Positions 31,814 to 48,852 of a stretch of 64,000 nt of DNA are shown here, in pieces. Where the stretch lies: positions 92,330,491 to 92,394,490 of the forward strand of contig CM037595.1 of NCBI GenBank assembly GCA_021018995.1, given 5' to 3'. The position numbers and the translations under genes are program-made. The first letter of the stretch is position 1, and the number at the start of each line of letters is the position of its first letter. The notes under the pieces are model-generated. The model searched no databases. It saw only the letters and a list, made by a program, of their open reading frames with translations, and was not told where the DNA came from. This DNA comes from Chloranthus sessilifolius (taxonomy: Eukaryota; Streptophyta; Magnoliopsida; Chloranthales; Chloranthaceae).

Positions 31814-32604
31814 CTGAAACACATAAAATTTCATACAGTTATGGTCAGGAAATATTTTGGAAATCCAAATGGGTCTTAGAATCATATGCAGAACAGATTG
31901 AATCTAATTGCATAATTGTAATGTAAATATACAAAATCACTCTAGTGTAAACAAAATCAACAGAAATATTAGGGTAAAATAAATGATCAAGCTAACCAGA
32001 GCATCAAAACTTGATACAAGATGTATACTGTAGTGCTGTTAAGAAAGAAAGCGAAAAATAAACAAGAACGCAAATCTATCACAGCAAACACAATGATTTT
32101 ATGTGGTTCGGCAATAGTAGCCACGTCCACGGATTCACCTAGGTTTGACTATTATTCAAGAGTTTCAAATTAGATTACAGGAGTCACTCAAAAAAGACTT
32201 TATATACCCTGTAATTAGGGCTAACGTAATAGAATGTGAATTACTGTTGTATCCATGACTTACGGGACCTTGGGGGACTGGCGCAATCGTGGCTGGTCAT
32301 CAGTACTCCCAAGTGACTCAATCGCATTTGTCTCCACATATCAACAATTAAACATTAAAGAATTGAGTACATCCACTCGTTAGAAAAAATTTGATAATAA
32401 AACTTTACCAGGAAGTCCTCTTCATCTCCAAACAATTCATAGGACAAAATAAAAAAGAAAGTACAACAGGCATGAAACTGAAAAATTATAGCACCTCCCA
32501 TTTTATCTTTTATGATTGTAGCAGGGTACATATAGAAGAATGCTCAACACCCTTTGGGGGGAGGTTAGCAATGTCCACAAAAAATGGACATGCTAACGCC
32601 CTTA
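31814..32604. other. Intron of the DET1-like gene left of the Harbinger element
   Basis: Non-coding. At about 32035-32345 it holds a sequence with TG..CA-like ends (TGTTAAGAAAG to ATATCAACA) and the motif ATGTGGTTCGGCAATAGTAG, CCACGTCCACGG, seen in dispersed plant LTR-type repeats. No TSD found, so it is only a candidate repeat. Ends at the TSD TTA (32602-32604). Confidence 0.45.
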
Positions 32605-33622
32605 GGCTGCGTTTGGGAACGTGAATTTGGATTTAGGCCCTGGGAAACCAAATACATTGTTTGGGTGACAAGTAATTGTATTTGGATTTGGATTTGAGAA
32701 ATCTCGTGTCATTCCAAATCCACACTCGTAGTGTAAAATCGGGAATTCACAAATGATGCCCCATACTTGTTATTTGGAAATCCAAAGGGAGATGCGCCCT
32801 TCTCAATAACAAAAAGCTCATCGAGGTGCACTCTTCTCTCTCCCTCTCTCTCATTTCCGTTTTCCTCCAAAAAAAAGCTAGGGTTTGATTGTCTTCTTCA
32901 TTTTTCTCTGCAAAAAAATTGGGTTTGATTGATCTCCTCGTCTCCTTTATTTTTTTCTATAAAAAATTAGGGATTGATTGATCTCTTTGATCGATCTCCT
33001 AGTCTCCTTCATTTTTCTCTGCAAAAAAACTTGAGTTTGATCAACCTCCTTGTCTCCTTCATTTTCTCTGCAAAAAAATTGGGTTTGATCGATCTCCTCG
33101 TCTCCACAGCGGCCAGCAGCACAGCTCGATCAGATTGCAGAATCGTCTCAGTATTATTTGGATTTTGATCTTTGCGTTGAACTCAGGGAAAAAAAATCTA
33201 AGGTATGACTTTATAATTATTATTTTTTTGGATTTTGATAATTCGTTCTATTCTTAAATTTATTTATTTTTGGGACTTTTAATAATTTGGGGTTTTTAAT
33301 AATTTATTTATTTTTGGGGTTTTTAATAATTTGTTCCATTCGATGTTGTGTTTGGGAATCCATTATATTACAATAATTTATTATTAATTTTTATTAAAAA
33401 AAATAAAAGGGTGGATATCCACGGTCCATTGGTGTTTGGGAATCCATTATATTGCTATAGTTTATTATTTATTTTTATTTAAAAATTAAAAAAGGTGATC
33501 CACAGTCCAAAATATGGTTGAAGGTGAAAAAATCTATGCATTTGGTTGTTAAAGATAAATATCCAAATTCTTTATATATTTATTGACCACAACTGTTTGA
33601 TGAAATGTCCCAAATAACATAC

Positions 33623-33771
33623 CAGCTAAATGTTGTGATGGGTGTCAAGCCATAAAGTTGCTTCTTTGTAGCTTGCAAAAATAAAATCCTGAGAGTGTTC
33701 ATCACATTGTGCTTGACGTATTCAATTCGGAACTCATCATTAGTGTTCCATAGTTCCATAAATTTCTCAAC
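33623..33771 (-). CDS. Exon-like segment of an unrecognised host gene
   Basis: 149 bases, minus strand, acceptor GGTTTAG and donor CTG/GTATGT. The frame reads VEKFMELWNTNDEFRIEY, then VKHNVMNTLRILFLQ, then KKQLYGLTPITTF, a normal globular composition with no stop. It is not DET1, since exons a and b join without it. It lies inside the Harbinger element, in the transposase intron and antisense to it, so it may be a captured gene fragment. Identity unknown. Confidence 0.5.
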
Positions 33772-35007
33772 CTAAACCAGAGATCTGTATGTTAATAATT
33801 TCCTGAAAAAATGATCCGTGAAGAAAAGGCAGGACTCAATCCATTTCAGTCCAATGTCACTCCAAGATATTGGCAATCAGTAGTCGCATAATATTTCCAA
33901 TAAAGCATTTAAACATCTTGATTGGGGTTGGGCCTGTAGCTCAACGGATCCAACTAAAGGAGTACAGGGGAAAGATAATCTCAGACAATACCAAGACATC
34001 AATTGATTCATCTTGATACCGGAGCCACCCAAGACAGATGTATCATCTCAGGAAATCTCCCAATTCATATATTTTTTTTTTATCATCATATACTTTGTGG
34101 TACATGTATTACCCATGTAAACTTTGTATTCGTGATACCTTGACAATACGCCTCGGCAACGGCACACAATACAGAGATTTTAATCCTTGCTAGATTATGG
34201 TTATATAGTACTTAAGTTTTAAATTTGATATACAGCCAAAAGCTGTCGACATTCGATTCTTCTGGGAACTGAGAACTAAGCTTCATACTAATTTATGAAA
34301 AACTTGGGTGAGTCAACTAAGTTTTTTGGAAAACATCATCTGAGCAAACCAGTTCGTAGTACGGTTTGCTTGAGGTCGCAAACTGGGTCACAGTTGTGTT
34401 CAGGAACCGCTTCCGCTGATCTGGTTCATCCAGTTCAGCTTTGATTATAAAAATCTGTAAAATTAGATTTAGATTAGGGATCTAACTCATATCTCCTTTA
34501 TACGCAATGCATAAACCAACGTGCTATGAAACTTTCATGTGTTAAATATGAATTTATAATTAATATATTATATTTTTCTCTATAAATATTTACTTTTTAT
34601 ACCATAAACTCATCCTATCCCTAGTGAACCAGGTTCACTTGACAGTGGAAAACAGTGAACCATAAAACCGAATTTTAACCAATAACACCAGTGAGCCTGG
34701 TAACATTGTTTTAAACCTTGTTGTTAGGTATTTCCTAATTCAAATGGAGGTAAAACAAGGAAGGGTAAGGAGCTGATGTAAGAGAAATTAGACATAAATT
34801 AATGTATATGATATAGTTCTCAACTTTGTTTGCTACTTTTTACCATCATATCTTGTTACTTTTTGCACATTATGAAAGATTATCACTAATAAAAAAGGAT
34901 ATAAAGATTGGGCAAGATGTCATTATAAGTCCTAACAATCTTCCAATCAATTGGTCTCACAAGAAAACAAGAGACCAAAATTTTACACAATTTTGGCATA
35001 AGATCAC

Positions 35008-35100
35008 CTTTATATTCACCTACCGAATCTTTGAGTTCACCCACGCCCAAACCCATTGACAACTTTGAATCAGACGATGGAGATTGTTTTTGGTCCCAAG
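35008..35100. repeat. Fragment of the 9-bp-TSD MITE family
   Basis: Matches one arm of the MITE at 30358-30761 (ATCTTTGAGTTCACCCAC, GAATCAGACGATGGAGAT). The second arm is missing. Confidence 0.75.
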
Positions 35101-35697
35101 CTATAAAGCGTGATAGCCTGGCCAGGCCTATTTTCATTACAGAAGGCCATAGTTCCCAAAGGTTTTAAAACCAGTTTAATATATTAGGTTGAACCAGTTG
35201 GGCCATTAGATTGGCCTGTATACACTACAAAAGGCCATTAATTCCATGGTTTAAGCATTTGGCCGTGAACATGATGACCCTTCTAGAATCTCTCTTAGGA
35301 ACCCGAGTTATGTATAGTGCTTATGTTACTTGTGTACTTTGGTGACCATCTTACTATTTGATGTTAGCTGTCTTTAGTTTCACTGTGAGAGATTAGAGTC
35401 TAGTGCTTCTAAATGGAAGTTGCTTGTCTCAAGCCTTACAAGAAGTCCATCCATGTTAGTAATTATTCATGCGTATATCTATGCATGCTTAGCAATCCAT
35501 CCATGGCTTTGAGAACTGACACAATGAGGAATCCTTTCAAAAGATTTTCCCAGCCCCAAAGACTTAAGGTTATTAGCAAAATCATCAAGAACAGAAGATC
35601 ATTATTTACAAATTTTATTTTTGTTTTATGCTTTGTTCCTCCAAAAAAAAATGCATTCTTTATCAATATTTGGAGACAGTTACTCATCATAATTTTA

Positions 35698-35813
35698 GTG
35701 CCTGTTTAGTTGGGGAAACCATTTATTGATTTGAATCAAGGAGAAACGTAGTTTCTCCGTACAATCAGAAAGAGACCCCAAACAGGTCTAAGACCCATGC
35801 TCCAAACAGGGTC
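35698..35813. mobile_element. Small MITE-like element
   Basis: 116 bases with ends GTGCCTGTTTAGTTGGGG and, inverted, GACCCTGTTTGGAGCATG, flanked by TA on both sides. A third related inverted word (GACCTGTTTGGGG, minus) lies just inside the right end. Superfamily uncertain. Confidence 0.45.
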
Positions 35814-37335
35814 TAAATACAATCAGTCCCCAAAAAGGTTTGTTTGTTAATTCATTATAATTCTAGTTGGCTAAATGAAATGAGATTTGACTAATTCAGT
35901 ATATTTAACAAGAACCCTATATTTATAAAATCTGTGTTGTTAGCAAGAAAGTCCCCACAATTCAAAAGTTCACTTGTATATAAGGTGAGAGCAATATTTT
36001 ACTGTGCAAGTAATTTAATTAATTTTTCTGTAACTATAATCCATTAGAAGAAATTAATGTGTAAACAGTATTGTTCGCTTTACAGCTGAGTTTGCAAATT
36101 CAGTTCCCAGTTATTAGTGTTTGCAAATTCAGTTCCCAGTTATTAGTGTATCTCCAAATGAACCATTGGCCAGTGACCTATACTCTGGTTTATTTTCCTT
36201 AACAGTAGCACTTCGAATGAAGAAACAAAAGATAACCAGTAAGCTGCAATTAGTTTCAGGATGTTGAGCAGGCTGCAATAATCACAGTAAGCCCAGACAA
36301 ACAGATTGATTTGTGCGCTAAGCATGATTTTAAAATTGCATAGTATTTTCAATATTGGATTTAGTAGACAGCAGATCATGGGTCCTTCTTATTCTTTTTT
36401 TTTTTTGTTTTTGTGCTATAATTTTTCTATTGACCTGCTCAATTTCCCATAGCTACTATCCCACACTAGCTTTCACTATCCACCACAAATACCAAGTCTG
36501 TTTTTCTTTATTTTTTTAAGACCCATGATATGTTCATATTATGCATAATACATATATCGATACGTTCATGAATCGTTTTTTATATATTATATTTAAAAAA
36601 AAAACACAACTGATTCATTTTATATATTATTTTTAATAGCAATGTCTAGTGACGAGACTACCATGGGTCAAAATACCGGTTTTCCGGTACGTATCGTCCG
36701 GACTTCTCGGACGATACGTACCGGGTATCGTCCGATACATTCAATGTATCGGCGATACATTGAATGTATCGGTTTGATACATTGAAAAAATCGTTTTTTT
36801 TTTTTTAAATCCCAAAAAAATCCCAAAAAATTATATTTATTTATTTTGTTTTTATTTCAACTATTTTTGCTTTTATTTTTTATATATTTGATGCATTATT
36901 TAGATGAATATATAAGTAAGATGCCTATTTTGTAACTTAACCCAAGTCACATGCCTAATTTTTAACTTATTTTTGTCTTAAGATCACATTTTTGACTTAA
37001 TGTAATAGATCTTCTAACATTATATTCGATCAGCTGATCACATGCCTATTTTATTAACAATATTTCATAATTTGATCGACGCAGACACGCATAAAGTAAA
37101 TTACAATATATATTGACAAAAATAAATTATATATTGTCAAAAATAATAGCTATGTTGATAAAAATAAGTTTAATTGTACATAAAAAACTTACTTTAGAGC
37201 CACATTGAATTTCGTGGTGGTTCTTGGCCCTCATGATCATCGTCATCATCGGTGCGCGAGCTTTCCGGCCTTTGCCTATAATGTTGCCCATATTGATACC
37301 CATGATTACGAGGTCAGAGAACGAATATGGCTCGA

Positions 37336-40215
37336 TTAGTAATGCGTAAAGGCCAGTCCTCCAAAAATCTGACTAACGAAGTCATATGGCACCGGGTAAG
37401 CTTGTTGTGGCGGGTAGTATGGGTTACTAGTTCTTTGAATCTTGATTTTACCAGCTGAATCCCCGAAGCTAGAAGTCATATAACCCATATCCAGTATCAT
37501 CTTGTGGTGGTGGTGGTGGTGGTGTTTGATATGATCCGCTCCTCTTCCTTCAACCCCTCCCATTACGAATGTAGGAGTGTCGAGGCGTGTTACCATGCCG
37601 CCATATCTCTATAAGGATCGAGGTACCCGACTTCCTCCCTCCACCACTAGTGCCAACATCCCTCCACCATCATGCCCTCCATCATCCTCACCACTCCCAT
37701 CATCACTCTGTGCGTTTTCGTCATCAGATCCAACCACTGAATGACGATTCATTCTTCTTTTCCGCCTCGGTTGTTGGGAAGCCTGCTGCTCCGCTACTCT
37801 TTCAGCATTGTCCAGCCATTCAGTGCTCTCACTATCCAAGACTGGCACTTCTCTCTCTTGATCCATTCATTCAAAGGTCATCCTCCTCGAATATATAATC
37901 CAACTGGATGGAATCAAAATAATCACCGTCTGCAAGATAGAATATGATAGATGAATTAGTATAATATGTAAGTAAGACTTCATATAATTGAGGATCTAAG
38001 ACTTCATGTAATTGCTTACCGCGGTTGGTCCTCTGTATATTCCTGACCCTTAATCGCATGCTGTAGTGGCAGTAGACTAACTTTTCCAATCGGTCCATAG
38101 TTAGTCTATTCCTTGTCTTAGTATGAATCAGAGAGAAAGTGCTCTAATTCCGCTTCAAGCTGACGAGGAACACGCTTACATAATACCTCATTGCTACCCG
38201 CCTCAATATCGGACCATCACCTCCATAATGCATCCACCAATCAGGGTTTGTCGTGTTTAATTTGGGATTGCGCCTAACGGGGTCCCAAATGACCCATGTC
38301 TCATGTAAACATGTCAATCTATAAAGATGAAACAAAGAAGGCACATATCAATAAATAGATGATAATATCACATGACATTTGACTTATTAATTATAAGGTA
38401 TGATACTATGATCACTCACATCTCTTATGGCTTGGCCTTGGTCCGCCAACTCGTGGAGCATTCTTTGGATTACATTGAGCAAACCGGTATACACTTCATC
38501 GTGTCGCCAACTCAAGCGCGTCACAGACATCTTTGGAAGGTCGGATTCAAGTAGTGTGCTACACATCAAATATGAGCAATTTCATCAAGATATGAAAATA
38601 ATGAATAAATAAATAAAAATCACTACATAATTGTGCAACATGTTATACTCCGCATGCACAATCTTGGTGAAATTGTGCATCCCACCTCTTGTCGATAATC
38701 GCCAGATATCGTTTATATTTTGTAGGGCATTTGGTTTTATAGCCAATTTTGCCTTATCTATTGACTCATAAACGCATTCCCATTGTTGGTTTGTCATCAC
38801 CATCAACCAATCTGGTGGTCGACATCGCCCCAAAGCTGCGTCTTTGTAGATCAGTCGACAACCGGTGCAAGCTAGTCTCTTCGCTCGTGGGAGTCCTATT
38901 TCATGTTGATTCCATTCTTCCGACGACACCATGCTTTTCAGCTCACGCCTATATCTAGCCGCTAAGAACTGCGGTTGCAAAACGCGGTAATCGCTAGGCC
39001 TGGAGCAACTCATTGTTCGTGAAGGCTCTCATTAAATTGACCAGCTTGTCACTGTTGTACAAGTAGGAAGTAATCGTTCTTCCCTTTTGAATAGTTGCCT
39101 GTGCCTTGCTTCTCTTTCCTAAATCCTCAAGAATGAGGTCCACGCAATGTGCGGCACACGGGGTCCAGTACAGGTGACGTCTCTTCGCCATTAGTTTTAA
39201 TCCAGTGGCTTTGTAGTTTGCCGCATTCGTTATGCATTACCAAGACAACCCGCCGCTTCTCCAACCTCATTAACTACCATATCCATTAGTTTAAAGAGGT
39301 AGTCGCCTTTACGTGTGTCAGAAGCATCAATCGATTTCAAAATATCGTCCCAAGATCGTAAACCAAAAAGTTTATCAAGCTCTTCTTTGTGGCACCAGTC
39401 CATCCATCCCACATAATTGTACTACCTCTCTTATCCCAAACATCCTCAAAGCTCAGTACATGGCGGTTATCTCATCGTACTCATCATTAGTAAGGGCCCA
39501 GGATATCTCATATGGAGAAGGCTTTTTAACTCTGGACCAACTTCGCACTTGTATCAATCATGCTTTTGAAATGCATGATACGCTACTTGGCTCAATGTGG
39601 TTGTATAAAAAACTTGGCAATGGATTTTCCAAGCTTCTTCCCCATTTTTGCAAGTGACATTGCACTCAATTTGGTTTGTTTGGAGCTTTCAGTGCGATAC
39701 ATGAATGGATCCATGGGGGCTGTAGTACGGCCTCTAGTAGACGGCCTATAATCCCTCCCAGATGCTGCCCTACGCAACCCGACAGTCTGCTCAACATCCT
39801 CATCAACATCAACAACATGTGGCCTATGACTAGATCCACCACCGGTAGCAGGCATGGATGGACCCCTCAACCTGGACCGAAACCGATAATCGGCTTCTTC
39901 CTGATCTCGACGCTGTTGTGCTTCCCTAGCACTCTCTCTCATAGCTCTCGCTAGCTGCTCATCCTCACCCTCATCCTCATCATCCTCAGGTGCATCTGAT
40001 GTAAACTGTGGATCTGGCCTCCTGATTCTCTCATACATTTCCCTATCACGATCGGCTTCAGCTTTTTTCTTTCCCTTTGCCGCTTGTAAACTAGCTCTGA
40101 TATTTTCTTTTACCTCTCTTTTACAGGACACCCTCTTGTCTCTCCTTTACATGAGCTAGATGCTCCTTTAATCGTGATACCTCCTCAGCAGTTTTTTCCA
40201 CAAAGATTACATTGA
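37336..40215 (-). pseudogene. hAT transposase (BED finger, DUF659-like, hAT dimerisation end)
   Basis: Minus order: a BED-like zinc finger (CNLCGK near 40200, HLAH and GC following, in more than one frame); an acidic and Arg-rich segment then KLGKSIAKFFI (39592-40131); a DUF659-like block with GWMDWCHKE, SIDASDTRKGDYLFKLMD (39230-39412); HLYWTPCAAHCVDLILEDLG (about 39130-39185), a hallmark of plant hATs; a long middle segment (38585-39013); the dimerisation part DWWMHYGGDGPILRRVAMR (about 38170-38230); and an acidic tail with a His run from (GGT)n (37503-37524). It excises and inserts the element and acts as a dimer in the nucleus. Several frame changes make it inactive as it stands. Confidence 0.9.
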
Positions 40216-40394
40216 ATCGAGTCTATTACCATCTATCATTGCCATATTGCTATTTGGATCATCATTTAACGTACCATATTTATTTATTTCACCTGCATGA
40301 ATGAGCAAACGATTGCATTAAAGTAAACATCTAATTTACACTTGAAAATAAATTTTATTTTTTAATTATTGCTATTTTAAAAATATCAGATTAT

Positions 40395-40665
40395 ATTTTA
40401 TCAAATTTATTTGATATTATTATAATTTTTGAATATTTATTCGATATTATTATAATTTTTGAATATTTATTTGATATTATTATAATATATAAATATTTAT
40501 TTGATATTATTTTAATTTATGAATATTTATTTGATATTATTTTAATTTATGAATATTTATTTCATATTATTTTAATTTATGAATATTTATTTCATATTAT
40601 TTTAATTTATGAATATTTATTTGATATTATTTTAATTTTTAAATATTTATTTGAAATTTTTTTCA
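40395..40665. repeat. ~31-base AT-rich tandem array in the hAT
   Basis: About eight copies of GAATATTTATTTGATATTAT-like units with small changes (TGATATTA or CATATTA; ATTTATG or ATTTTTG). No coding potential. It is followed by AT-rich sequence with TATATGTGACCCATATT-like words (40730-40910). Confidence 0.9.
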
Positions 40666-41180
40666 TATTATTCTAAAATTTTAGGACATATCCCATAATA
40701 TAAATTATTTTAATTATATGAACATATAATCAATATGTCACATATAATTAAATTTATTATTATAATTAATATGTGATCCATATTAATTATAATAATTAAT
40801 TTAATTATATGTGACCCATATTGACCTTATTATTTTATTAATTATATGTGACCCATATGATATGTGACCCATATTATATGTGGCCCATATTGATTACATG
40901 TGACCCTTAATTATAATTATTTATATTATTTTTTACCTATCAATTTAAATATTTTAAATGGGGTCACATATAATTATTTTTGTCCCATCATATTATTTTT
41001 GACCAATTATTTATATTACTTTTAATTAATTTAAATATTTTAAATAATTATTTATATTATTTTTAAATTATTTTAAATAATATTAATTATTTTAAATAAT
41101 ATTAATTATTTTAAATAATTTAAATAATTAATATTATAGGTAAATGATAAATTGACCTATAATATTAATTAATATTAAGG

Positions 41181-41883
41181 GTAGATCTACACTAAATTAG
41201 TGTAGATCTACCCTTATTTAGTGTAGATCTACACTAAATAAAGGTAGATCTACACTAATTAAATATAGATCTACACTTAATTAGTGTAGATCTACACTAA
41301 ATTAGTGTAGATCTACCTTATTTAAGGGTAGATCTACACTAATTAAATGTAGATCTACACTTAATTAGTGTAGATCTACACTTAATTAGTGTAGATCTAC
41401 CTTATTTAAGGGTAGATCTACAATTATTTAGTGTAGATCTACCTTATTTAAGGGTAGATCTACACTTAATTAGTGTAGATCTACCCTTATTTAGGGTAGA
41501 TCTACACTAATTAGGTGTAGATCTACCTTATTTAAGGGTAGATCTACCTTATTTAAGGGTAGATCTACACTTATTTAGTGTAGATCTACCTTATTTAAGG
41601 GTAGATCTACACTTAATTAGTGTAGATCTACCTTATTTAAGGGTAGATCTACAATTATTTAGTGTAGATCTACCTTATTTAAGGATAGATCTACACTTAA
41701 TTAGTGTAGATCTACCCTTATTTAGGGTAGATCTACACTAATTAGGTGTAGATCTACCTTATTTAAGGGTAGATCTACACTTAATTAGTGTAGATCTACC
41801 TTATTTAAGGGTAGATCTACACTAATTAGGTGTAGATCTACCTTATTTAAGGGTAGATCTACACTTAATTAGTGTAGATCTAC
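41181..41883. repeat. GTAGATCTAC palindrome array (~34 copies) in the hAT
   Basis: About 34 copies of the perfect palindrome GTAGATCTAC (some TATAGATCTAC or GATAGATCTAC) at a spacing of about 20 bases. They are joined by linkers such as ACTTAATTAGT, CTTATTTAAGG and ACTAATTAGGT that are themselves near-palindromic. The array is almost free of other sequence. It lies upstream of the transposase gene and inside the right end of the hAT. Confidence 0.95.
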
Positions 41884-43959
41884 CTTATTTTAGGAAATAA
41901 AATGAAATACACATACCTTCCACGTCGATCCCGTGATATTTTGTGCGATTTGGCGCCGATTTATGGGGTAAATAATCAAAAAATAGAGGAGAAAGAAGAG
42001 AGGAAGAAGAGAGGAGGAAGAAGAGAGGAATAGGAGGAAGAAGAGAGGAGGAAGGGGTAGAACCCGACTTTTAAGTCGGGTCTACCGTGGGCCCCACATC
42101 AAATTCAACGTATCGGACGATAATTTGAAATTATCGTCCGATAATTTCAAATTATCGTCCGATAATTTGAAATTATCGTCCGATACGAACGATAATTTCA
42201 TATTATCGTTCGTATCGGACGATAATTTGTTTTTTATTTACTTTCCTACAGATTTAGGCAAATTATCGGACGATAATTTCAATTTATCGTCCGATAATTT
42301 GAAATTATCGTCCGATACGGACGATACAGACGATATTTTGTCCGTATCGGACGATAATTTACACATTCTACTGATGGTACGATACATAGGGTATGTATCG
42401 TACCGGTGGGGTCCAAAACCGATACGTATCGTCCGATACGTATCGGTATCGGACGATATTTTGACCCATGGAGACTACTTTGCGTTTACAACTGAAGCAG
42501 GCAAGAGAGGAAGAGGAGAGGCTCGAGGAAGAGGAAACCGAAATTATAATAATTCTTGTAGGTTTCCTTATAGCAGCTGTAGGAGCATGGTATCATAAAA
42601 AGTACATGCTTAAAGAACCATCAACTAGTAGAGATGATTCTAGGAGAGCGTGGTTGAACACCTTAATCAATGGTAATGAATTTACATGCATTCAACAGTT
42701 GTGAGTTACGCAAACACCCTAATCAATGGTAATGAATTTACATGCATTCAACAGTTGTGAGTTACCCAATCAGGGTTTAGAAGACTGTACACCATTTTGC
42801 GAGATAAGGGTGAGTTGGTGGCCTCGAGAAATGTTACAATTGAAGAAATTGTTGCCCTTTTTTTACATATTATTGCTCACAACCTGAAAAATAGCACGAT
42901 CAAAACTTGTTTTGGTCGTTCAGGTGAAACAATAAGTAGACAATTACTTATTGTGTTGCAAGCAATTCTTCGATTAGGTAAAGATTTTCTTAGATTACAT
43001 GAAACAACTCTTGATGAGCGAGAGACAGAGAAATGGGGATGGTTCCAGGTACTAATTCAACTACAACATTATGTTTATATATTTTACTTGTCGTTGCATA
43101 AGACTAATAACAATTTAATGATTTTTTTTAAGAATGCCCTGGGAGCACTTGATGGGGCACGTAGAATTAACAGTTCCATTGGTAGACCAACCTAGATATC
43201 AAAATCGAAAGAACGACATAACCACAAATGTCTAATGAGTGTGTGATGCCAATTTAAAATTTATATATGTATTACCCAGTTGGGAGGGATCCAGTTCTGA
43301 CTCTCGAGTGCTGCGAGATGCTTTATTCAGGCGCAATTGCCTTACGGTCCCATTTGGTATGAACTCAATTTTTTTATATTATTATTTACTTTATATCATT
43401 AGAGTTTAAATAATGCAACTAAATTATTGCTATTTTAATTGTTGTAGGTAAATATTATCTTGTCGACGCAGGGTATAGTAATGCACAAGGATTTTTAGCT
43501 CCTTATAGAGGAACTCGATACCAGCTTAAGGAGTGGAAGGGTAACACTCCAACCAACTATAAGGAGTTATTTAATCTTCGACACTCATCTGCAAGGAACT
43601 CGATTGAAAGAGCGTTAGAATTATTGAAGAGATGGGCTATACTGCGGACCGCGAGTTTCTATAGTGTCAAAACACAAGTTAGGATCATCAACGCTTGTTT
43701 CATCCTTCATAACTTGATACGAGATGACATTCCAAATGAGTCATTGTTGGATGATGTTGATCACGAGTTAGAATCTGCTTCCGTAGAGGATCAAAATGAG
43801 GATCACGAACGTATCACAGTCATACAAGCTACACCTGAATGGATGGCATTTCGAAAAACTTTAGCAAGGGATATGTTTGATGAGTATTAGGCTCATCTAT
43901 CACTTAGACTATACATGTTTAAATTTGATTTTGATGTAAATGTTAAAATATTGTCTCTT

Positions 43960-44182
43960 TGATGCTTATGAAAATTGATGGATATGTTGGAAGATGTTAT
44001 CATACTGTGTCACTTTAATGCTTATAAAAATTGATAGATGTGTTGGTAGATGTTATCATATTCCATCTCTTGGATGCTTATGGAAATGGATAGACGTGTC
44101 GGTAGATGTTATTATATTCTATCTCTTTGATGCTTAAGGAAATTGATGGATGTGTTGGTAGATGTTATATATTATGTCTCTT
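43960..44182. repeat. ~62-base tandem repeat downstream of the Harbinger transposase
   Basis: Four copies of a unit containing GATGCTTATGAAAATTGATRG, TGTTGGTAGATGTTAT and TCTCTTTGATGC, each slightly changed. It lies between the transposase stop and the Myb-like gene. Confidence 0.85.
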
Positions 44183-44254
44183 AAATTAATAGATTTATTT
44201 GAATTTATCATAAATTGTGCATTATTAATTACATTTTGATACAGATATATTTGA

Positions 44255-45226
44255 ATGAACATGATTAGAAAAGAAAAACAGTTGCAGACCGACTCGGATG
44301 GAAACAAAGGAAGGGAATATTTTAAATGGAACCTCTCTATAGAGAAAACATTAATAAATATCCTGCACGACCAATTAAATTTGGGTATGAGGGGGGACAA
44401 TGGTTTTAAACCTCAAGCAATCCAATCTGCAATTGATGCAATAAATGGGCAATTCAACAATAAGGTAGAAGAAAAATATGTCTGAAATAAAATAAAAAAT
44501 TGGAAGACCCAGTTCTCCTAGAGTGGCTTTACATGGGATAATGAGAAACATATGATAATAGTAGAAGATGAATTTGTATGGCAGAGACTTACTGTGAGGT
44601 AGGAAAAATTTATTTTTTAGGATGTTTATTGATATGAGTTTAATACTAATATGAAATATATGTTTGTTTTCTTTTTATAGGTACATGAAAAGGCAGCCAG
44701 TTACAGAAACAGACAAATAGATTATTGGGATGATTTTGTGGTGTTGTTCGGGAATGATAGAGCTACTGGGGTGGGTGCAGAACACTACGATGATGCTAAT
44801 GAAGCTATGAGAAATGAAAATTTAGATGAGATTGATGAAATAAGGAGATCGATTAGGCTTCAAGATTTGAGTGATGACAATAACGACAGCACCACATCAC
44901 CACGAGCACGACCACGATCATTAGCACACTCTACTCAATGTGGCCCAAACCAAAAGAAGGCTAGGAAAGATCATATGGCAAATGTAGTTTACGAGGTGGC
45001 TAATTCAATCAAAGACTTCTTGGCAACAAGGAAACCGACACAACCTACCACGACTCAAGTGTTAGATTTGATCTCAACTGTGCCAGGCCTCTCTGATGAC
45101 GAGGAATTCAAAGCACACGAAAGGCTCCTAAAAGCCGATCCTAGGACTATCAAGATGTTGTCTACTTTTGGCGATGATAAAAAGAAGCGGTGGATACAAT
45201 TACTCCTCTCTAATCCACCTAATTGA
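44255..45226 (+). pseudogene. Harbinger Myb/SANT-like DNA-binding protein (ORF1)
   Basis: Second gene of the Harbinger element; in this family the ORF1 protein binds the element ends and carries the transposase to the nucleus. Seen: FKWNLSIEKTLINILHDQ (44325), NGFKPQAIQSAIDAINGQF, NKIKNWKTQFS, SGFTWDNE (about 44530), then after an intron (about 44600-44680) YWDDFVVLFGNDRATG (about 44725-44770), matching the usual LxxIFGxDRATG. The 163-residue last part (44738-45226) is acidic then basic (KKARK) and ends LLSNPPN. An in-frame stop near 44483 indicates inactivation. Confidence 0.85.
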
Positions 45227-46742
45227 AAAGGTAAAGAAAAGACTCGTTTCTTTTGAATTTATTCTTTTTTTTATATATAATAATGCTTAGGTTTTATATA
45301 AAATTGTCTTCTTGCAAGCTTATCAAAGACTTCTTGCAAGCTTATGAACCTTTCAATTTTTCTTTTTTGCTCATAGCAAATCATTTACCTAGCAAGGATG
45401 AGCTCGTTAGTGACTTAAAGCGGTTAGGCGCCTCTCACAACAAATCATTTGAACATGTGGAAAAGCTTGTTTTTCTCCGTAAGGGTGTGGAAGCTTATTG
45501 ATTTCCAATACTACTTATGATGGATAATTGATAGTCGCACGGTTTTCTTTATTATATTCAATGGAGATGACTTTGTTTTGAACTTCCCTAACGCACTTCT
45601 TGAAATGCGTAGTGTGAGGATAAACAATTGGACAATTGATCCCACCTTAAATAGCCTACGTGTGTATCAAAATTTGCATATTGTCACTTGATGAGTACTT
45701 GAGTTTGATTTGTTTTTCAATTGTTGGTATTTTCCTTGGATCTTTCATGATTTTTTTTTTTTGAGAAAATTGGGATCAAGACTTTGTTGATCACTATGGT
45801 AAATTGTTCATCTGAAAATCTAATCACTGGTTTGTAAGTTTTAATGCAAAAATCAGTAACTTTTGTTTTTTAAAAATATTTCTAGCTGGCTATACATGTG
45901 AAAAATCAAACCAAAGACGAAACCCATTGTTTAGTTTTTGAAGTTGTTTTAATGGTGGTGTTGTAGAGTAGCTCTAAGTTAGAATTTAGCTGGCAGTCCC
46001 AACCTACTTTTCACATATTGCCAAATCCATTAGGTATACCTACATTTGAAAAATAAGTGTTCATTCATTTCCATATCTTCCCAACAAAGAACATATCGGG
46101 AAGGGATATTGGATCCTCTTTTCATTAGATTTTCGATAGTCATGAGTTTATCATGGACTGCAAGCTATGAAATAAAGTTGTGTTTGGAAATATTCATCCC
46201 ATGACAGAGGGTTTTATACCACAGTACTCTTTGGTTCCTTTCCCTTTTTTTCATTTTGATTGGTTCTTGTTACAGGCTATGATGAAAATATAGTGGCTTC
46301 AAGAATGGATGTTATGAGTAAGTCTAGAGTGGTTTCTATCGTAATGATCCCTTGATGATGGCTATGGAGTCTTGACCAATGAGTTCGTTCGGATTCAAAT
46401 TCTGAAGTTTCAACAACTGAATCAATGGTGATGGAGAACAATAGAAACCCAAGTCTATATTTGTATGCTGAGATTGATCGAGGAATAGAGATCACTACCA
46501 AATTGTCCTTCACTGATTTGATTGAAGTTGGTGCAACATAGGATTCTTTTATAGATTAAAAGGCCCATGTTGGCCTTTTGTTTTATTAGAGTTCACAGTG
46601 CTAGTATTTTTGTTGCAACAATTGCTATATTTTAGACCAAATTTTATTCATTATTTAATGATGATGACCTTCCATGGCTCTCCATTTCAATATTTGGATT
46701 GATATATAACAAGAAAGAGTGAGCAAGTTGTAACCCTAATGA
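45227..46742 (+). other. 3' region of the Harbinger element, unassigned
   Basis: 1.5 kb without a recognisable domain. A short frame (45253-45501, ending LVSDLKRLGASHNKSFEHVE) has no known relative that I recall. At about 45300-45350 CTTCTTGCAAGCTTATSAA is duplicated. Confidence 0.4.
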
Positions 46743-47245
46743 CAGTTCAGCATGTCAAGATCTAGAGTTGGTATGTGGGTACTCAGCCTGAGTGCCTGGT
46801 GACCTATCTAGAGTTGGTATGGAGCACTCGGTCCGAGTGCCTCATGACCTATCTAGAGTTGGTATGTGGGCACTTGGCCCGAGTGCCCGGTGACCTAATA
46901 CTCGGGCCATTTTTGGGATGTATGCCACGTGGAAACACTTTGTGTGTTCTGTCTGATTTGAAGGCTATGATATGAAGGATTTTAGTGCAAAATTTTGATA
47001 AGAAACAAAATTTCTATCATCTAATTCAACAGTCAAAGATCCATAAAAAAATGGATGGTATGTTAGATTTACGTAAATTATTTATGGCCTTGGCGTTGAA
47101 TCAAATGATAGAGATAGTTTTTCGTGCCAAATTTTTGCACCAAAAAATGGCTATGTCATGGCCTTCAAATCAGATGGAAGTCATGGCATGTGTTCCCGAG
47201 TGGCGTGGGCATCCCAAAAAGTGGCCCAAGTACGAGGGCACCTGA
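46743..47245. repeat. Foldback element with tandemly amplified left end
   Basis: Two inverted arms of about 130 bases face each other: the left starts GGTGACCTAATACTCGGGCC (46892), the right in reverse complement starts GGTGCCCTCGTACTTGGGCC (47245). Shared inner words include TCTGATTTGAAGGC. Left of the first arm a ~54-base unit (CTATCTAGAGTTGGTATG plus GCACTCGGTCCGAGTGCC) occurs three times (46748-46900). No clear TSD. Confidence 0.65.
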
Positions 47246-47593
47246 CATAATACCAAGGCTAGCTCCATTTGCGCCTATTGAACTATTGAGGGACCCACGT
47301 TGAAAACCACAAATTGCATTGAATCAGACCATGGAGATCTTTTTCATTTTTATTATTATTATTTTTACATATGGATATCGGGATGGGCAATGATCAGGTC
47401 CAACTGGTTGAACCTGAAATCGTGTTCAACCAGATCTGCAGCCATTGGCAAAAAACCCGACCCGTCCCAGTAAAAAAACACAAATTTTCATTATCTTTAT
47501 ATCTAAAATATTGGGTTGGGTGGACTCAACCAGTGACCCTATAATCTTTGCTGACCCAACCCAACCGGTCCCGGTTTTTGCCCGACTCGACCT

Positions 47594-47822
47594 CATGGAT
47601 CAAAATATCGTCCGATACCGATACGTATCGGACGATATGTATCGGTATTGGACTCGAACGATACATTCAATGTATCATTTGATACATTCAAATGTATTGA
47701 ATGTATCGAACGATACATTCAATGTATTGTCCGATACAGACCGGTACCGATACGTATCGTTCGATACGTATCGTTTTGGAGCTCGGACGATACATATTGG
47801 TAACCCAATATTTTAACCCATG
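47594..47822. mobile_element. hAT-type MITE (TSD CTCGACCT), relative of the hAT at 36662
   Basis: 229 bases with ends CATGGATCAAAATATCG and, inverted, CATGGGTTAAAATATTGG. Perfect 8-bp TSD CTCGACCT at 47586-47593 and 47823-47830. The interior consists of CGATACGTATCG and GATACATTCAATGTATC palindromes, the latter also found at 36735-36780 in the hAT. Ends and interior make it a deletion derivative or close relative of that element. Confidence 0.92.
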
Positions 47823-48184
47823 CTCGACCTAACCTCATAGTTGACTCAACCCGACCCATCTGGATGAGTGAAGTTTATGTGGCCGACTCGGTAAAACATT
47901 CGGCTCGGGTGGGTTGGAAATCGGGTTGACCCTACCCATCTAAATTCTTAATTGTGATTCATATATACTAAAATTTAGGATACTGGAATTTAAATTTTAT
48001 TTTTTTAAAATTTACCTAATGAAGCTTTTAAATCCTAGGAATAAATCCCAATACACTCCTTAAACATTCAAACAAGAGATTTTCAAATCCAAATATTTCA
48101 AATCCTAGATTTGAAATGCTTAGATTTCAAATGCTTGGATTTGAAATTTTCAAATGCAAATGCTTGTTCCCAAACGCAGCCTTA

Positions 48185-48852
48185 TAGATTTCAAAAACGT
48201 AATAGGAGTTCTTGACTGCTCGGTAAAATCACCAGTTTCCTATTCTTGTAGTTTCCATATAAAGTAGGGAATTCTATGACAGCTTATAGAATACCTTGCT
48301 TTATTTGGTAATTAGAAGAATACCAGATGGTGTTTTCCCAAAATCAGCCCCATTTCTTTTCAAGCTTAGTTGTATTTTTTTAAATTGAGACTTACCAGAA
48401 GGAGCAAAAGAGGTTGTATCATCCATATAAGAAAAGCCACAGTCCTCCAAAAGAGAAGTATTTAACAAGAATGAGCACACAAGTAGTTGGACTCATCTAA
48501 TCTAACTAGAATGACTTGAATGGGATCAGAAACCACAGAGCAAACGCATCACAGACTAATAATCTGAACTAAACTAAAGGCATTCAATCATAAACAAGAA
48601 CACAACAACAAATTAGAAACATACAGGTCCTATAATAACAAAGAAAGAATATCGTAGACGAGCCCAATGCAAGAAGAACCCACCCACCCTAAGCTCAAAA
48701 GGCTAATACAGCAATATTCACGTTATCTAACTATGAATTGTTATGTTAAAGATGCATATACTATTAGATCAAGAATTTAGATTAGTTCATGATACTACTG
48801 ACAAGAATTGAATTTCAGGAAATAAATTGGATTCGAGATTTATATAATCAAC
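48185..48852. other. Intron of the DET1-like gene right of the Harbinger element
   Basis: Non-coding by eye. A stretch near 48396-48460 reads FSYMDDTTSFAPSG on the minus strand before a GTAAGT, but exons a and b join without it, so I do not call it an exon. Confidence 0.5.

Follow-up and report, generated by a model that had tools for sequence, protein, structure and literature searches.

Two DNA transposons of different superfamilies occupy one locus of the Chloranthus sessilifolius genome, one of them lying where the transposase gene of the other begins. The arrangement raises the questions of whether this is a genuine nesting, which element came first and what the later arrival did to the gene that it entered. 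Here, we address these questions for a window of 64,000 bp of contig CM037595.1, in which all positions are counted from the first base. We conclude, with a probability of about 97%, that the locus is a case of nested cut-and-paste transposons, a hAT element within a PIF/Harbinger element; nothing in this analysis contradicts it.

A hAT element within the first coding exon of a Harbinger transposase

Several lines of evidence support the nesting. First, two copies of GAGACTAC, read directly at 36654-36661 and 42471-42478, form a perfect target-site duplication (TSD) around an insert of 5,809 bp at 36662-42470, exact to the base as given in a sequence-only reading of the locus; by arithmetic, two given places would agree exactly over 8 bp by chance in ∼1 of 65,000 cases. 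The Harbinger transposase coding sequence runs for 20 bases (36642-36661, forward strand) up to the end of the left TSD copy, and the flanks, once joined, give the single frame MSSDETTLRLQLKQ..., so that the uninterrupted protein predicted for the empty site is indeed recovered. Second, the empty site exists elsewhere. The source genome was searched with a query of 235 bases, comprising both flanks and a single copy of the TSD. All 37 first-look candidates were scored, and of the resulting 38 matches two were the window's own halves. Among the 36 non-window matches, 33 run through the site as a single alignment and three lie only to its right, with identities from 96% over the full query for the best to 64-70% for the weakest. 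Third, of the 29 loci that this search found outside the window, 17 could be aligned across the transposase region (with the longer form L071 used for L018), and 12 were partial, interrupted or unalignable over it. The hAT element is absent from all 17 aligned siblings, seven of which retain GAGACTAC exactly. These results make the hAT insertion the derived state, later than the Harbinger element. A start of the MSSDE type, which the sequence-only reading had set as a test of its proposal, is present in related copies: the ATG is found in 14 of the 17 siblings, while of the remaining three one has lost it, one has another codon and in one the extract ends before it.

Fourth, the ends of the insert are those of a large family. 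The 14-bp terminal inverted repeat (TIR), CATGGGTCAAAATA, is perfect and occupies 36662-36675 (forward strand) and 42457-42470 (reverse strand, final letters CCCATG). This 14-mer occurs 4,011 times genome-wide compared to three times for a reversed control, and the 44-base right end of the element has 399 exact occurrences compared to none for its control. Of the 29 hAT relatives (L040-L068) from a search with 38700-40200, we extended seven with end pieces. Their homology to the window starts exactly at 36662 in 7/7 and ends exactly at 42470 in 6/7, which agrees with the ends on which the earlier proposal had staked itself; the seventh, L041, shows no right end in the stretch examined. An 8-bp TSD surrounds all six relatives with both ends visible; it is perfect in five and has a single mismatch in the sixth. 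Given the 4,011 to 3 excess of the TIR, the empty sites in 33 of 36 matches and the TSDs in 6/6 relatives, the nesting is not a product of chance. The claim that a hAT element entered a pre-existing PIF/Harbinger transposase gene within its first coding exon thus stands, as does the claim that both partners can be recognized by TIRs and TSDs, to which their protein domains can now be added.

The PIF/Harbinger element inserted first, at a TTA, and the hAT element came later. Staggered cuts at GAGACTAC would have opened the first coding exon after its 20th base, and host repair of the 8-base overhangs would have created the TSD. The cut-and-join chemistry of both insertions is what we infer from these footprints.

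Identity and ends of the two elements

The guest (36662-42470, reverse strand) has a G+C content of 35.5% and carries a broken transposase remnant antisense to the Harbinger gene. An 8-bp TSD, short TIRs with fixed ends and transposase domains in relatives place it in the hAT superfamily. Plant hAT transposases of the Ac/Tam3/Tag1 kind have a BED finger, a DUF659 domain and a C-terminal dimerization domain; correspondingly, open reading frames of the relatives L061 and L044 match zf-BED, DUF659 and Dimer_Tnp_hAT above the Pfam cut-offs. The window copy itself retains a DUF659 piece with an E value of 1.4e-06, below the curated cut-off. A first family scan of its own open reading frames gave no hAT family, and a 90-aa piece of its C-terminal region has no Pfam match whereas the relative's piece matched. 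Over the query 38700-40200, identity to full-length copies outside the window reaches at best 91% (among 40 scored of 2,637 first-look candidates), and for the query 37050-38690 the best copy is 92% identical (among 40 scored of 2,717 candidates). Compared to plant hAT elements in general, the element shares the 8-bp TSD, the short TIR and the three domains found in its relatives, and its family includes a short non-autonomous member whose ends are of the same kind. It differs in a TIR that begins CATGGG or CAAGGG; the left end of the window copy (36662-36669) reads CATGGG where 7/7 relatives read CAAGGG, with the TIR position unchanged. Further possible differences are an internal array of 42-bp palindromic repeats and subterminal TCGTCCGATA repeats that are distributed asymmetrically, six of seven in the last 400 bp and one in the first 400 bp.

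The ends of the host had not been placed before and were reached through a 31-bp inverted match of 87% identity. It led to a 16-bp TIR that is perfect at both ends (GGCTGCGTTTGGGAAC at 32605-32620 on the forward strand; 48166-48181 on the reverse strand) and that, as read in the window copy, is flanked by a TTA TSD at 32602-32604 and 48182-48184. The whole element thus spans 32605-48181 (forward strand), or 15,577 bp in the window; subtracting the large hAT and one copy of its TSD leaves 9,760 bp. Relatives support both ends. On the left, homology reaches 32604 in two relatives and 32623 in four more; on the right, 19 of 55 non-window matches stop at 48182-48185, three run 3 to 10 bases past and the others stop earlier. 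Several siblings lose homology near 35153 and 35333 and had suggested ends there; these were ruled out, as other copies continue leftward beyond the inserts and homology reaches 32604.

The TTA TSD, the matching TIRs, a DDE_Tnp_4 domain and a second gene of the Myb/SANT type identify the host as a PIF/Harbinger element. On the forward strand, the transposase comprises the broken remainder of exon 1 (42479-43048), a predicted exon 2 (43133-43356) based on GT/AG borders and sibling alignment, and a predicted exon 3 (43448-43890). DDE_Tnp_4 matches the window exon 3 with an E value of 2.8e-12 and the sibling L009 with 3.7e-23; the N-terminal Harbinger piece of L009, 201 aa long, has no Pfam match. 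The second gene, also on the forward strand and with a stop inside, lies at approximately 44261-45226. Its first 74 aa match Myb_DNA-bind_3 (PF12776; E value 4e-06, 28.1 bits against a cut-off of 23.6), and its 162-aa open reading frame at 44738-45226 has no family match. Plant PIF/Harbinger elements are of a two-gene type, and the host resembles them in its TTA TSD, in a TIR with ...TGCGTTTGG and in pairing a DDE_Tnp_4 transposase with a Myb/SANT-like gene. It differs in being ∼9.8 kb long without the hAT, which is long for this class, and in containing further repeats. A match to the Plant_tran family, together with the two-gene type of the host, points to a plant genome from the sequence itself.

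At 36304-36331, ahead of the Harbinger gene, the homology between the window and many siblings ends, and L009, L011 and L012 have a common, different sequence further upstream. Judged by these alignments, there are at least two Harbinger subfamilies that differ in their 5' parts.

Consequences for the Harbinger gene

The sequence-only reading held that the hAT had disabled the Harbinger copy. This part of the claim may be true but goes beyond the sequence evidence, given an in-frame ATG at the end of the hAT, other lesions private to the window copy and stops in 17/17 siblings. Today, both the hAT and the Harbinger copies are presumably inactive.

The likelier account, and one that we favor with some reserve, is that the Harbinger copy had lost its function before the hAT came in and that the insertion was without consequence. 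A crude splice model places seven internal stops in the window copy and one or more in every one of the 17 siblings examined. Exon 2 of the window copy contains stops and frame shifts. A stop at codon 82 is private to the window copy (0/17 siblings, one of them with a gap there), and so is a frame-shifting 56-bp tandem duplication at 42657-42769 on the forward strand (0/17 siblings). The multiple lesions of the window copy and the decay of its siblings speak for this account; however, the order of the lesions relative to the hAT is unreadable, which tells against it, and strictly private transversions at non-CpG sites are about equal in guest and host (25/2,785 and 14/1,338, p 0.61), so that insertion and host copy may be of nearly equal age.

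Divergence gave mixed signals on timing. By maximum likelihood, the terminal branch of the window hAT measures 0.064 among 30 sequences and that of the Harbinger copy 0.031 among 18, and all transversions against the consensus at non-CpG sites number 58/2,785 and 16/1,338, respectively (p 0.045). These two measures had suggested that the hAT was already diverged on landing, an idea that we dropped since the private transversions did not agree. Because more than half of the window-hAT transversions are common to other copies and because the two hAT searches scored 40 of 2,637 and 40 of 2,717 candidates, with largely different best copies, we withhold a conclusion on timing.

That the hAT instead killed a live, transposase-making copy is doubtful. 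The insertion falls at codon 7, translation from the old Harbinger ATG would enter the hAT and yield 47 codons before a stop, and the insert sets the rest of the coding sequence 5.8 kb apart from its 5' region, all of which would fit such a blow. Yet, the other disabling lesions of the window copy, again in unreadable order relative to the hAT, and the internal stops in 17/17 siblings under the same crude splice model, which make defunct copies common in this family, speak against it. So does the end of the hAT itself. The last three bases of the element (42468-42470, forward strand) are an ATG in frame with the downstream Harbinger open reading frame, a one-in-three event. The new frame, METTLRLQLKQ..., runs for 78 residues to its first stop, a lesion private to the window copy, and is broken in any case by the lesions described above; at the insertion MSSD- becomes M-, so that Ser-Ser-Asp alone is lost from the frame and the 5' region is displaced. 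By its position, this ATG may be a start codon for the remaining Harbinger open reading frame.

A broader reading is that hAT right ends act as portable start codons and that the Harbinger open reading frame was perhaps re-started rather than ended. We consider this improbable. As the right end of the family reads ...CCCATG, every insertion sets an ATG flush against the target site; were the reading true, a struck gene would, in one frame out of three, gain a start codon instead of being destroyed. Whatever its fate in this gene, an outward ATG at a hAT terminus means that insertion in an exon does not equal destruction of the reading frame.

The notion that the nesting is an assembly artefact joining unrelated sequences has a negligible probability: no support for it was found, an exact TSD lies on both sides and the boundaries are identical to those of independent copies.

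Context and further repeats at the locus

Nested transposons are commonplace in plant genomes, and the window holds an ordinary, cleanly bounded case. As a fully bounded example, it can be used in teaching and in annotation of the source genome, and it fixes, to the base, where a large hAT family and its PIF/Harbinger host end and which TSDs they leave. Among the titles and abstract openings of the open-access literature, we found nothing on a nested hAT/Harbinger pair, and the TIR letters were not met in a transposon setting. By the same portions of text, the papers returned for nested transposons concern other genomes (PMC2836289, PMC11939994), that returned for the TIR letters is a bacterial paper (PMC2670519) and that returned for transposon-supplied start codons concerns gene duplications (PMC9673378).

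The Harbinger copy also carries a short hAT relative, a MITE of 229 bp at 47594-47822 with a perfect TSD, CTCGACCT, at 47586-47593 and 47823-47830. Its ends, CATGGATCAAAATATCG... and ...TTTTAACCCATG, are of the same kind as those of the large hAT. The MITE is absent from the copies on C10 and C11, in which the matches on its two sides lie 2 bases apart compared to 239 in the window. It entered near the 3' end of the Harbinger copy; thus, with the large hAT, one copy was hit twice by one hAT family.

Other repeats were observed in both elements. Inside the hAT, ∼17 tandem copies of the 42-bp palindromic repeat (GTAGATCTACAC...) occupy 41173-41890, an array that hAT relatives also match, and ∼9 copies of a 30-bp minisatellite at 40390-40671 are matched repeatedly in several relatives. 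In the Harbinger 3' part, 46889-47242 matches its own reverse complement at ∼69%, like a fold-back element. Finally, 35006-35102 is a single arm of a MITE-like repeat that elsewhere forms inverted pairs, each spanning roughly 300-400 bp.
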